A stretch of 64,000 nucleotides of DNA, taken from Sinorhizobium chiapasense. Lineage in GTDB: Bacteria > Pseudomonadota > Alphaproteobacteria > Rhizobiales > Rhizobiaceae. A program made the position numbers and the translations under genes. Location of the stretch: contig NZ_CP133148.1 in the NCBI RefSeq assembly GCF_036488675.1, positions 2,914,001-2,978,000 on the forward strand. The letters run 5' to 3'. Below the pieces are notes generated by a model. That model did no database searches. It saw only the letters and a list, made by a program, of their open reading frames with translations, and was not told the DNA's origin. How positions within the stretch are numbered: the first letter of the stretch is position 1; every line of letters begins with the position of its first letter. Below, piece by piece: positions 15,368 through 54,019 of this stretch.

Positions 15368-15405
15368 ACTCGCGCACCCGCCGCAGCAGAACCGATCAGG
15401 GTCAA

Positions 15406-15506
15406 CTGCATGTTTCCTTAAATCGCACCCGATTTAAGGTTAAACATGCAGCAGTTCAAAGTGCTACAGCGTCCTTTGCGCGTCTGAAAGACGCGCGGCG
15501 CCGCAG
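15406..15506. repeat. Dispersed bipartite palindromic repeat, copy A
   Basis: AT-rich stem ctgcatgtttccttaaatc (15406-15424) pairs with 15431-15451 with a two-base bulge. A GC-rich hairpin follows: gcgcgtct (15478-15485) and agacgcgc (15489-15496). Copies B (17551-17654) and C (43449-43550) carry the same two parts in the opposite order, so copy A is inverted relative to them. It lies in the 234 bp gap between ecfG and the histidine kinase gene. Confidence 0.8.
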
Positions 15507-15601: not shown

Positions 15602-16156
15602 TCACGAAACGAATGCGCGCGAGGTAATGGGCGCCGAGGTCTCGTCAGGGCCGTAGTCGTTCTCGCCTTGCACCTGGAGAATTTCCTGAAGGCGCTGGCG
15701 CGCGCGATTGACGCGGCTCTTGATGGTACCGAGCGCGCAGCCGCAGATCTTGGCAGCTTCTTCGTAGGAGAAGCCGGATGCCCCGACCAGGATGATCGCT
15801 TCGCGCTGGTCCGGTGGCAACTGATCTAGAGCCCGCCGGAAATCCTGGAGATCGAGCGAACCATATTGCTCGGGATGGTGGGCGAGCGTTTCGGTGAAAT
15901 GGCCGTCGCTGTCCTGGATCTCCCGACCGCGCTTGCGCATCTGGCTGTAGAGTTCGTTGCGCAGGATCGTGAAGAGCCAAGCCTTCATGTTCGTGCCGAT
16001 CTCGAAATGGTCCTGTTTCGCCCAGGCTTTCATGATCGTGTCCTGCACGAGATCATCCGCTCGGTCGTGGCGGCCGATCAGCGACATGGCAAAGGCGCGT
16101 AGGCTGGGAAGTGCGGCGAGCATCTCGCGCTTGAATTCTTGATTTTCGGACGGCAT
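15602..16156 (-). CDS. rpoE2: General stress response ECF sigma factor EcfG (RpoE2)
   Basis: 184 aa ECF sigma factor of group ECF15. Sigma region 2 spans about residues 10-80 (LIGRHDRADDLVQDTIMKAWAK, NMKAWLFTILRNELYSQMRKR) and region 4 about 100-160 (DQLPPDQREAIILVGASGFSYEEAAKICGCALGTIKSRVNRAR). It directs RNA polymerase to GGAAC-N16/17-CGTT promoters during starvation, heat, salt and stationary phase. NepR holds it inactive until phosphorylated PhyR takes NepR away. The gene is 7 bp downstream of nepR, with which it shares an EcfG promoter, so it is autoregulated. Confidence 0.96.
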   Translation of the reverse strand: MPSENQEFKREMLAALPSLRAFAMSLIGRHDRADDLVQDTIMKAWAKQDHFEIGTNMKAWLFTILRNELYSQMRKRGREIQDSDGHFTETLAHHPEQYGSLDLQDFRRALDQLPPDQREAIILVGASGFSYEEAAKICGCALGTIKSRVNRARQRLQEILQVQGENDYGPDETSAPITSRAFVS

Positions 16157-16163
16157 TCGGCGC

Positions 16164-16376
16164 CTACTCCCTCCCTTGCAGAACCGATCGGCCTTGCAGA
16201 GTCGAGTGTTGTTCCGCTGCGTCGAGCTTTTCCAGCAAATCGAGGAACCTTGCTGGAATCGCCTCCTCCTGCACTGATTGATAGAGCGCCTTCAGCTTCG
16301 CTGCGATCTGTGCATTCGGATCACCGGTCGACGAGCTTGTGCCAATCGGCCGCCCTGCCCCTGAATTATATCTCAT
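16164..16376 (-). CDS. nepR: Anti-sigma factor NepR (RsiA1)
   Basis: 70 aa. The conserved NepR core is NAQIAAKLKALYQSVQEEAIPARFLDLLEKLDAAE (residues about 22-57), two helices joined by a short linker with the P-x-R-F/L-LDLL element. Both flanks are low-complexity, as usual. It binds EcfG in unstressed cells and phospho-PhyR under stress. It starts the nepR-ecfG operon, divergent from phyR across 138 bp that holds an EcfG promoter for each side. Confidence 0.93.
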   Translation of the reverse strand: MRYNSGAGRPIGTSSSTGDPNAQIAAKLKALYQSVQEEAIPARFLDLLEKLDAAEQHSTLQGRSVLQGRE

Positions 16377-16413: not shown

Positions 16414-16439
16414 AACGCAGGAAAAAAATGAAATGTTCC
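16414..16439 (-). promoter_or_regulatory. EcfG promoter of nepR-ecfG
   Basis: On the minus strand GGAAC (16439-16435), 17 bp with a run of seven T, then CGTT (16417-16414). A full match to the EcfG consensus, giving a start point about 30 bp before the nepR ATG. Confidence 0.88.
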
Positions 16440-16444
16440 AGCGC

Positions 16445-16469
16445 GGAACCTTTTTTTCGGCCGGGCGTT
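16445..16469 (+). promoter_or_regulatory. EcfG promoter of phyR
   Basis: GGAAC (16445-16449), 16 bp, CGTT (16466-16469). A full match, with the start point about 40 bp before the phyR ATG. Its -35 box is 5 bp from that of the nepR promoter, so the two face away from each other. Confidence 0.88.
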
Positions 16470-16514: not shown

Positions 16515-17309
16515 ATGACACTGTCTAACCGGATCGCGCCGCTCCTGCCCTATTTGCGCCGTTATTCCCGCGCGCTGACAGGCTCGCAAACCTCGGGCGA
16601 TGCTTATGTGGCCGCGGTTCTTGAGGCTCTTATCGCGGACACGACAATCTTTCCCGAAGCAAGCAACGACAGGGTCTCCCTGTTTCGCCTTTATACGTCC
16701 TTGTTCGGCTCATCCTCGGTCCTGATCCCCGAGCCGGTTTCGCCTTTTGCCTGGGAACAGCGGGCATCGGTCAACCTCGCGGCGGTGTCGCCACTGGCAC
16801 GCCAGGCCTTCCTGCTGGTGTCGGTGGAAGGCTTCAGCCCCAACGAGGCTGCAGAGGTGCTTGATGTCGATGCAGACAAACTGAGCGCGCTTCTGGAACG
16901 GGCATCGCAGGAAATCTCCCGTCAGGTTGTGACCGATATCATGATCATCGAGGACGAACCGCTGATCGCGATCGACATCGAGCAGATGGTCAAGAGTCTC
17001 GGCCATCGCGTCACCGGCATCGCGCGGACCCGGGACGAGGCAATCGCCCTCTACAAGGAAACGAAGCCGAGCATGGTGCTCGCCGACATTCAGTTGGCCG
17101 ATGGAAGTTCCGGCATAGATGCGGTGAACGAGATCCTGAAGACCGCCGCCATTCCGGTGATTTTCATCACCGCCTTCCCCGAAAGGCTGTTGACCGGCGA
17201 ACGGCCCGAACCAACCTTCCTCGTCACGAAGCCCTTCAATCCGGAAATGGTTAAGGCGCTTATCAGCCAGGCGCTCTTCTTCAACGAATCGACGAAGGCG
17301 GCCGCCTGA
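16515..17309 (+). CDS. phyR: Anti-anti-sigma response regulator PhyR (RsiB1)
   Basis: 264 aa. Residues 1 to about 125 form the sigma-factor-like domain that mimics EcfG and captures NepR (LLPYLRRYSRALTGSQTSGDAYVAAVLEAL; region-4-like LLVSVEGFSPNEAAEVL). Residues about 140-260 are a receiver domain with acidic pair Glu146-Asp147, phospho-acceptor Asp191 (MVLADIQLADG), Thr219 and Lys239. When phosphorylated by HWE kinases it opens and sequesters NepR, freeing EcfG. It is divergent from nepR-ecfG. A candidate EcfG-dependent small RNA lies just downstream on the other strand. Confidence 0.96.
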   Translation: MTLSNRIAPLLPYLRRYSRALTGSQTSGDAYVAAVLEALIADTTIFPEASNDRVSLFRLYTSLFGSSSVLIPEPVSPFAWEQRASVNLAAVSPLARQAFLLVSVEGFSPNEAAEVLDVDADKLSALLERASQEISRQVVTDIMIIEDEPLIAIDIEQMVKSLGHRVTGIARTRDEAIALYKETKPSMVLADIQLADGSSGIDAVNEILKTAAIPVIFITAFPERLLTGERPEPTFLVTKPFNPEMVKALISQALFFNESTKAAA

Positions 17310-17370: not shown

Positions 17371-17499
17371 AAAACAGCCAGTGCCGAGGGAAAGGCACTG
17401 GCTGAGCTTTATCAACTCACAGAGGGGATGTGAGTTGGGCAACCGGCGGTATGCCTCCGGCGTCACATTGGGGGCGATGTGCGCCACCGTCCGGTTGTC
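17371..17499 (-). ncRNA. Candidate GsrN-like general-stress small RNA
   Basis: About 129 nt predicted on the minus strand, with start near 17498-17499, set by a perfect EcfG promoter, and end at a Rho-independent terminator. On the RNA strand there are three hairpins with C-rich loops. Hairpin 1 (17464-17481) has CACAT/ATGTG arms and loop CGCCCCCA. Hairpin 2 (17413-17437) has 8 bp arms and loop ATCCCCTCT. Hairpin 3 (17376-17403) has 10 bp arms and loop TTTCCCTC, followed by GTTTT. A 7 bp helix CAACCGG/CCGGTTG (17491-17497 with 17440-17446) encloses hairpin 1. EcfG control, C-rich loops and position beside phyR match GsrN of Caulobacter, an sRNA that pairs with G-rich mRNA leaders. The homology is inferred from structure, not alignment. 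Confidence 0.68.
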
Positions 17500-17505
17500 C
17501 GCCCC

Positions 17506-17530
17506 AACGCGCGAGGAGGAGAAAGGTTCC
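17506..17530 (-). promoter_or_regulatory. EcfG promoter of the candidate small RNA
   Basis: On the minus strand GGAAC (17530-17526), 16 bp, CGTT (17509-17506). A full consensus match with the same spacing as the phyR promoter. No protein gene lies downstream on this strand before the end of phyR, so the promoter points to a non-coding transcript. Confidence 0.82.
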
Positions 17531-17550
17531 ACAAAAAATGAAATCGATTC

Positions 17551-17654
17551 CTGCAGCGCCGCGCGTCTTTTCAGACGCGCAAAGGACGCTGCAGGACTTT
17601 GGATTGCTGCATGTTCTTATCCTTAAATCAGGTACGATTTAAGGAAACATGCAG
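17551..17654. repeat. Dispersed bipartite palindromic repeat, copy B
   Basis: Outer arms ctgcagcg (17551-17558) and cgctgcag (17587-17594) enclose a hairpin gcgcgtct/agacgcgc (17561-17580). An AT-rich stem follows: ctgcatgttcttatccttaaatc pairs with gatttaaggaaacatgcag, ending at 17654. Same orientation as copy C, inverted relative to copy A. Lies between the small-RNA promoter and the 3' end of the FGGY kinase gene. Confidence 0.8.
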
Positions 17655-17667
17655 TAGCTCCTTCCTC

Positions 17668-52306: not shown

Positions 52307-54019
52307 CTAAAACAGGAAGTAACGTTGTGCCATCGGCAGGACCGTCGCCGGCTCGCAGGTCAGCAGTTCGCCGTCGGCACGGACCTCGTAGGTTTCGGGG
52401 TCGACTTCCACATGCGGCGTCAGGCTGTTGTGGATCATCGACGCCTTGCCGATGCCGCCGCGGGTGTTCTGGACGGCGACGAGCTGCTTGGCGACTCCCA
52501 GCCGTCCCGCAAGCCCCGCATCGAGCGACGCCTGTGAGACGAAGGTGACGGATGAGTTGGTCCGGTTGCGGCCATAGGCTGCGAACATCGGCCGGTAGTG
52601 AACGGGCTGCGGCGTCGGGATCGAGGCGTTCGGATCGCCCATCGGTGCCGCGGCGATCGAGCCGCCGAGCAGCACCATGTCGGGCTTCACGCCGAAAAAG
52701 GCTGGGTTCCAGATGACGAGGTCGGCGCGCTTGCCGACTTCCAGCGAACCGATCTCATGGCTGAGGCCATGCGCGATCGCCGGGTTGATCGTGTACTTGG
52801 CGATGTAGCGCTTGACCCGAAAATTGTCGTTGTCGCCCTTCTCCTCTTTCAGCCGCCCGCGCTGGCGCTTCATCTTGTCGGCCGTCTGCCAGGTGCGGAT
52901 CGCCACTTCGCCGACGCGGCCCATGGCCTGGCTGTCCGACGAGATGATCGAGAAGGCGCCGATGTCATGCAGGATATCCTCTGCTGCGATCGTTTCCTTG
53001 CGGATGCGGCTTTCGGCAAAGGCGATGTCCTCCGGGATGGAGGGCGACAGATGATGGCAGACCATCAGCATGTCGAGATGCTCCGCCAGCGTGTTGAGCG
53101 TGTAGGGCCGCGTCGGATTGGTCGAAGACGGAATGACATTCGGCTGGCCACAGATCTTGATGATATCCGGCGCATGGCCGCCCCCCGCTCCTTCCGTATG
53201 GAAGGCATGGATCGTCCGGCCCTTGATCGCGGCGATCGTATCCTCGACGAAGCCGCTCTCGTTCAGCGTATCGGTGTGTATCATCGCCTGGACGTCATAT
53301 TCATCGGCGACCGACAGGCAGCAGTCGATCGCCGCTGGCGTCGTCCCCCAATCCTCGTGCAGCTTCAGCGAGGTGGCGCCGCCGAGCACCATTTCGACAA
53401 GCGCTCCGGGCAGTGAGGCATTGCCCTTGCCGGCAAAGGCGAGGTTCATGGGGAATGCATCAGCCGCCTCGATCATCCGGGCGATGTGCCAGGGACCTGG
53501 CGTGCAGGTCGTTGCGAGCGTGCCATGCGCGGGGCCGGTGCCGCCGCCGAGCATGCAGGTGAGACCGCTCATCAGCGCTTCCTCGATCTGCTGCGGGCAG
53601 ATGAAGTGGATATGGCTGTCCATGCCGCCGGCCGTGACGATCTTGCCCTCGCCGGCGATCACTTCCGTGCCCGGCCCGACGACGATCGTGACGCCCGGCT
53701 GCGTGTCCGGATTGCCGGCCTTGCCGATCGCCGCGATCCGTCCGTCCTTGAGGCCGATATCCGCCTTCACGACCCCCCAATGGTCGACGATCAGCGCGTT
53801 GGTGATCACGGTGTCGACCGCGCCGCCCTCGCGCGTGACCTGGCTTTGCCCCATGCCGTCGCGGATAACCTTGCCGCCGCCGAACTTCACCTCTTCGCCA
53901 TAGGTGGTGAAATCCTTCTCCACCTCGATGAAAAGCTCGGTATCGGCAAGGCGCACCTTGTCGCCCACCGTCGGACCGAACATGTTGGCATAGGCCGCGC
54001 GCGACATCTTGTAAGGCAT
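52307..54019 (-). CDS. ureC: Urease alpha subunit UreC
   Basis: 570 aa catalytic subunit. Nickel ligands and active-site residues are in place: His136 and His138 ([10 protein letters not shown]), carbamylated Lys219 ([12 protein letters not shown]), His248, His274, the mobile-flap Cys321-His322-His323 (MVCHHLSP), and the later Asp region [12 protein letters not shown]. It hydrolyses urea to ammonia and carbamate in the cytoplasm with UreA and UreB. It is 3 bp downstream of the GT29-like gene. Confidence 0.97.

Follow-up and report, generated by a model that had tools for sequence, protein, structure and literature searches.

The general stress response of Alphaproteobacteria has been well mapped for PhyR, NepR and EcfG, and less so for its RNA arm in rhizobia. 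Of the actions of GsrN in Caulobacter crescentus, the one set out most fully is not masking: GsrN activates katG by way of the katG leader (PMC5869019). Tien et al. 2018 proposed putative GsrN homologs at the phyR locus of R. etli, S. meliloti, B. abortus, A. radiobacter, R. palustris and B. diazoefficiens (PMC5869019). In R. etli, tiling arrays and northern blots revealed the RNA ReC64 and an additional larger band of unexplained origin (PMC2881028), and ReC64 has been seen in both exponential and stationary phase. It was described as an 88-nt RNA downstream of phyR-tcrY, with 5' RACE, reporter expression that was lost in an ecfG1 mutant, and control by both EcfG1 and EcfG2 (PMC3892343); a further study reported its increase in salt shock and predicted overlapping SigA and RpoH promoters instead (PMC4167512). 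SmelC601 (SMc06778) of S. meliloti 1021 is a chromosomal, minus-strand RNA of 127 nt with a predicted RpoE2 promoter, listed as expressed in nodule zones; the same table places it on one strand with SmelC587 ('rnTrpL?'), 49.4 kb away (PMC7143759). A 2011 listing placed it among the families restricted to Sinorhizobium (PMC3927594). In Brucella, Bsr6 needs RpoE1 (PMC12772402). These statements reflect the excerpts of the cited papers that were available, and a search of the literature, with most subscription journals outside it, returned no functional study of the rhizobial RNA.

The window analyzed here is a stretch of 64,000 nucleotides from Sinorhizobium chiapasense, and a preliminary description of it had proposed a rhizobial GsrN counterpart beside phyR. 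This idea is already known, and the RNA already described, since the start and EcfG dependence of ReC64 were published by 2013 and homology to GsrN was proposed in 2018. What is new is the firmness of the conservation beside phyR, the definition of the family, and an unpaired GGAGGYA patch in Sinorhizobium/Ensifer. The features of the locus are as follows.

15602..16156, minus strand: ecfG (rpoE2-type) sigma factor gene (Pfam Sigma70_r2 and Sigma70_r4_2)
16164..16376, minus strand: nepR (Pfam NepR, 56 bits)
16515..17309, plus strand: phyR (Pfam PhyR_sigma2, PhyR_sigma-like and Response_reg), convergent with the small RNA
17371..17499, minus strand: small RNA of about 129 nt (fold, covariance models and synteny), with its start placed from the promoter
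17440..17497, minus strand: 5' domain, helix P1 (17497-17486 with 17450-17440) around hairpin P2 (folds of 12 orthologs)
17469..17476, minus strand: P2 apical loop CGCCCCCA, the GsrN-like 5' C-rich loop
17451..17458, minus strand: unpaired strand GGAGGCAU, a Shine-Dalgarno-like patch
17413..17437, minus strand: hairpin P3, loop UCCCCUC
17371..17404, minus strand: terminator hairpin P4, loop UUUCCCUC, stem 17404-17375, then UUUU (fold)
17506..17530, minus strand: EcfG promoter GGAAC-N16-CGTT (pattern match)

The feature at 17499-17371, with its EcfG-type promoter, is confirmed as a real and well-conserved small RNA beside phyR. Its fold energy was -63.1 kcal/mol against -38.4 (sd 3.6) for shuffled sequences (z -6.84; none of 200 as low). 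The fold bore out the three strong hairpins of the preliminary description, with C-rich loops and the last hairpin as terminator, and the GTTTT noted behind that hairpin is the last G of the stem followed by UUUU; the proposed long-range helix of 7 bp is also present, as the outer segment of a longer, bulged helix (7 + 4 pairs). Single folds of 12 orthologs gave the shared plan in 11, while in the remaining one (L044) the minimum free energy structure differed in the 5' domain and the centroid agreed. These folds place an exposed C-rich site within a domain closed by the 5' end, as in GsrN. The strand GGAGGCAU at 17458-17451 was absent from the preliminary description. A DNA search found a single copy of the RNA in the genome, the other nine own-genome matches being short (15-33 bases) with E values of 0.6 or worse.

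The stretch had been described as gene-free. A 56-aa GTG ORF is open at 17532-17362, and the chance that the feature is a small protein-coding gene is close to nil, because none of three ORFs of at least 50 aa across the stretch had a Pfam match over the cut-off (best 20.2 bits against 27), the 17532-17362 ORF included, and loop lengths shift by one or two bases among close relatives. On the Pfam results and the loop-length changes, the coding ORFs across 17371-17499 were rejected, and compensatory base changes likewise argue against coding.

The promoter that had been reported, GGAAC-N16-CGTT at 17530-17506 on the minus strand, was recovered by pattern match. GGAACN{15,18}CGTT occurs seven times in the 64-kb window against 2.24 expected, a count reached by two of 100 shuffles, and three of the seven matches fall in the ecfG-nepR-phyR locus. 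Among the best 80 of 566 PhyR relatives (named records), an EcfG box lay upstream of the homologous RNA in 76, in the strict CGTT form in 54, against a background of 24 among 3200 random stretches of 50 bases drawn from these loci. In 74 of these 76 boxed loci the spacer was N16, and the distance from box to model start (R2, see below) was 6-8 positions; the four loci outside the pattern have GGAAC with a weaker -10. As read from the box itself, the RNA at 17499-17371 shares the EcfG-type promoter of GsrN. Two further boxes stand back to back in the nepR-phyR gap (16414-16439 minus and 16445-16469 plus), an arrangement consistent with autoregulation.

The surroundings of the locus showed several other features. 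Genes for an HWE kinase and an FGGY sugar kinase adjoin it (Pfam). A palindromic repeat at 17536-17664 (minus strand), between the small RNA promoter and the FGGY kinase gene, recurs at 15396-15490 and resembles the Brucella sRNA family BASRCI27 below threshold (42.7 bits; gathering 59.8); this Rfam family may touch a repeat element, because it has at least 48 matches in the same genome (40 of 622 candidates scored). At 53578-53866 (plus strand) lies a match of 104.5 bits to the Rfam family 5_ureB_sRNA, whose name presumably derives from Helicobacter. The genome also encodes a second PhyR-type protein (G000:C1:498225-499007, minus strand; 68% identical), and the 4 kb around its gene held no match to R2 at E 5 or better. 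In S. medicae, inserted ORFs (L123, 5200-7325; one LysR-like by eye) split phyR from the small RNA, leaving about 2.2 kb between them and the promoter in place.

Two covariance models were built without the promoter, R1 from 21 sequences of the genus and R2 from 26 sequences. The scan that started from PhyR kept the best 80 of 566 relatives, and the sample therefore consists of near relatives, the nearest over 10 kb being Ensifer sp. IC3342 at about 90%. R2 matched all of these best 80 loci (53 to 138.7 bits), and the synteny check suggested by the preliminary description placed the RNA downstream of phyR, on the opposite strand and convergent with it, in 80/80. A DNA search of 60 genomes including our own matched 33, namely our own, 31 of 32 from the genus (the one missed is 70% complete) and, weakly, one of three others in the family. 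R1 recovered the RNA in at least 23 of 247 family genomes and at least 10 genera, and by inspection its 19 matches outside the genus have GGAAC and GTT or ATT about rightly placed. With R2, at least 69 of 394 family genomes matched at E 0.01 or better, and at least 58, from at least 14 genera of the GTDB family, at 36.4 bits or more. Most sampled family genomes gave no match; the family search scored 8-14 candidates per genome, so that these counts are lower bounds. phyR adjoins the RNA in all 56 inspected of the 58 matches at 36.4 bits or more (G591 and G654 excluded), in three of them visible only in a longer stretch, and in none of 18 longer loci fetched for matches at 34.2 bits or less. 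Among the phyR-linked matches of the family search the lowest score is 36.4 bits, a narrow gap above unlinked places; R2 scored up to 34.8 bits at short extra terminator-like places, and a score in the mid-30s alone therefore proves nothing. Short extra matches of the DNA search, mostly to the terminator part (eight places fetched), were taken as chance, because the one checked (L359) falls within a 532-aa open frame of the opposite strand that by eye resembles a membrane transporter.

Alignments of the RNA indicated that the structure is maintained. Both-side changes were found in 9 of 24 pairs in a MAFFT alignment (A2; slid structures 1-4) and in 25 of 38 pairs in a model-fitted alignment that leans towards structure (A4; slid 5-11), and in each case none of 500 shuffles, which ignore relatedness, was as high. 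P1, the least regular helix, had both-side changes at 10 of 10 pairs in A4, with 81-84% of cells paired. Across the best 80 of 566 PhyR relatives, the terminator stem was the most conserved part (0.95), and the linker (0.47) and internal strand (0.48) were the least conserved. The near-invariance of this stem (CAGCCAGUG/CACUGGCUG, 17404-17375, minus strand) is at odds with the freedom of such stems to covary.

A loss of the C-loops in related genomes had been named as grounds for rejecting the GsrN reading, and the C-runs proved to be kept among the best 80 of 566 PhyR relatives. Within bases 16-60 of the RNA, CCC occurs in 80/80 and CCCC in 70/80 of these loci; the loop region of P3, the middle hairpin, has CCCC in 80/80, and the 3' part has CCC in 79/80. 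The P2 loop reads CGCCCCCA in 40 of the best 80 and is merely six bases long in 16; in both six-base cases whose sequence was inspected (L189 and L194), the C-run lies in the neighboring internal strand. The P3 loop looks like a recognition site in addition to the GsrN-like 5' loop, because its C-run is present in 80/80.

The constant orientation could also reflect a cis role, in which the RNA would act on the mRNA of the convergent phyR (or phyR-tcrY), either as an antisense RNA overlapping its 3' end or by way of a shared terminator. Convergence in each of the best 80 loci and the nearly invariant sequence of the terminator stem would suit such a role, but the neighbor varies: in 52 of the best 80 of 566 PhyR relatives phyR and the RNA have a tcrY-like kinase gene between them, which is absent there in 28 (26 Sinorhizobium/Ensifer and two others), and the separation in S. 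medicae is wide. The conserved C-loops, moreover, favor pairing in trans, and we regard a cis role as improbable.

Membership of the ar14 (NfeR1; RF02344) family, with three hairpins and an anti-Shine-Dalgarno motif in every loop, would be another way to read the fold. Both RNAs have three hairpins with pyrimidine-rich, C/U-rich loops, and a search of 2.5 kb returned a sub-threshold Rfam match (24.4 bits, E 0.069), but this score is far under the gathering threshold of 58.8 bits. The eight ar14 matches of the genome (E 0.01 or better) all lie elsewhere, seven of them with UCCUCCC or UCCUCCC-like loops and none with an EcfG box within 60 bases upstream by eye; the available excerpts of the ar14 literature give that family the loop motif UCCUCCC and a sigma70-type promoter. 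A search of 17 orthologs (E 1, 53 kb) likewise listed no ar14 match, but this counts for little, because a 24-bit match would go unlisted there. This reading is thoroughly implausible and is rejected on score, loops (without a UCCUCCC-type anti-Shine-Dalgarno motif) and promoter.

The loops CGCCCCCA, UCCCCUC and UUUCCCUC of the present RNA are without the anti-Shine-Dalgarno core CCUCC that is present in the unrelated ar14 RNAs, and CGCCCCCA is complementary to UGGGGGCG, close to the GGGGGCG(U) sites of GsrN partners given in the available part of the GsrN study (PMC5869019). The masking of ribosome sites, which the preliminary description foresaw with three loops at once, would thus not be the default expectation, because the Caulobacter precedent is activation of katG and the loops are also without the CCUCC core.

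The unpaired GGAGGYA was found in 26 of 26 Sinorhizobium/Ensifer loci (L140-L165, of which L160 is titled only 'Rhizobiales bacterium') and in none of the other 54 among the best 80 of 566 PhyR relatives; the other sampled genera mostly have C-rich sequence in its place. It thus appears to be a Shine-Dalgarno mimic specific to this clade within the best 80. Predicted duplexes with seven RNAs with ar14-type loops ranged from -9.5 to -13.3 kcal/mol, against -15.6 kcal/mol with an eighth, sub-cut-off ar14 match, -6.0 to -8.6 kcal/mol with the RNA's own loops and -9.5 kcal/mol with the 16S tail, its sequence being our assumption; all these energies ignore accessibility and were calculated without a shuffle control. 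The argument for the patch therefore rests on its fixation in one clade, because any CCUCC would pair in this way.

Such a patch might indicate that the main partner of the transcript is a protein or, in a sponge role, another small RNA, and not mRNAs. Its presence in 26/26 Sinorhizobium/Ensifer loci of the best 80 and its predicted pairing with the seven ar14-type RNAs would be consistent with this role, but the other 54 loci keep the C-loops and have no such patch, and energies that disregard accessibility, in the absence of shuffles, put the 16S tail level with the weakest of these duplexes. A transcript acting mainly in this manner is quite improbable. An RNA with two faces in Sinorhizobium/Ensifer, with C-loops for G-rich mRNAs and a GGAGGYA that captures ar14/NfeR1 RNAs or the C-loops of a second copy, is in our judgment unlikely. 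If true, the general stress response would, besides acting on targets of its own, release those held by ar14 RNAs, and the clade-specific patch offers in this respect the sharper and unexpected hypothesis.

Beyond the family, R1 (289 class genomes including our own, with a strict first filter) gave one weak match elsewhere (L062, E 0.055), with no phyR within its 3.1 kb; over these genomes and the 249 order genomes searched with R2, matches outside the family were weak, and those fetched were without phyR nearby. A PhyR match was present in 89 genomes outside the family (31 + 58), from which 39 loci were fetched (L283-L321), and with R2 these and the locus of the second phyR (L322) yielded three matches whose E value was 5 or better. 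One of them, outside the order (L303, 6146-6268, minus strand; 24.1 bits, E 0.0036), lies convergently downstream of phyR and alone of the three showed a strict EcfG box directly upstream; the RNA has a similar architecture, its middle hairpin being without a C-run, and is retained as a lead. EcfG-like boxes also precede short C-rich hairpin RNAs near phyR at L306 (~6886, plus), L308 (~4993, plus) and L302 (~4910, plus), which have other architectures and are unmatched by R2. The RNAs of L306 and L308, from one other family, have two hairpins, and the PhyR of that family is at most 64% identical to structure 3n0r, which we take to be that of Caulobacter PhyR. For these loci as a group, at least two CCC loops followed 6 of 208 EcfG boxes against 13 of 1170 random places, and at least one CCC loop followed 36 of 208 against 263 of 1170, in the opposite direction; a general rule of C-loop RNAs after EcfG boxes is not supported there.

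Taken together, we consider it probable (about 0.8) that 17499-17371 (minus strand) is the gene of a small RNA that acts in trans in the general stress response, is orthologous to ReC64 and very probably also to SmelC601, and works in the manner of GsrN. PhyR would free EcfG from NepR, and EcfG would then drive the RNA, whose single-stranded C-rich sites in the P2 loop, the P3 loop and possibly the P4 loop would pair with G-rich stretches of mRNA leaders. By analogy with GsrN, such pairing would change the translation or stability of stress genes, and the P3 loop, C-rich in 80/80 orthologs of the best 80 of 566 PhyR relatives, may be the most likely shared pairing site. As a single conserved RNA next to phyR in many rhizobial genera, it lends itself readily to study and could show whether the mode of action of GsrN is general.

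Judged by locus and promoter, and with R. lentis as stand-in, the RNA is the ortholog of R. etli ReC64. Like ReC64 of R. etli CFN42 (Vercruysse 2010, Jans 2013), it is intergenic, lies downstream of phyR(-tcrY) and has an EcfG box; the ReC64/SmelC601 traits of a place downstream of and convergent with phyR, and of an EcfG promoter directly upstream, are both found here. In contrast, tcrY is said to sit between phyR and ReC64, as a tcrY-like gene does in R. lentis (L218: phyR, tcrY-like gene, RNA), whereas the window has no tcrY there, and ReC64 is put at 88 nt against the 129 nt predicted here. Counted from 17499, 88 nt reach to 17412, the first base beyond P3. The 88-nt ReC64 may be a processed 5' isoform ending after P3, and the larger ReC64 band could correspond to the full RNA.

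The RNA is very probably the ortholog of S. meliloti SmelC601 as well, as judged from its length, strand and type of promoter, and from a distance that differs by nearly 4 kb. In S. meliloti 4H41 (L142), the RNA is 128 nt long, has an EcfG box and lies about 45.7 kb from a trpE match on the same strand; we take rnTrpL to precede trpE. The listing of SmelC601 confined it to Sinorhizobium, whereas our model finds the RNA in at least 14 genera of the GTDB family.

The claim of a GsrN counterpart stands insofar as the RNA occupies the same place as the one that others call a putative rhizobial GsrN homolog and combines an EcfG-type promoter with conserved C-loops. With GsrN of Caulobacter crescentus, as described in the accessible part of its report, it shares control by EcfG (SigT), the usual position of homologs near the general stress response locus, a 5' domain with an exposed C-rich loop, a terminator and a length of about 100 nt (PMC5869019). 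GsrN is further characterized by a stable 5' isoform that arises by cleavage, by pairing with the katG leader and by peroxide survival, and the 88-nt form of ReC64 recalls this isoform, a parallel that is suggestive only. One 5' recognition loop has been described for GsrN, whereas the present RNA has a second C-rich hairpin, conserved in 80/80 of the best 80 of 566 PhyR relatives.
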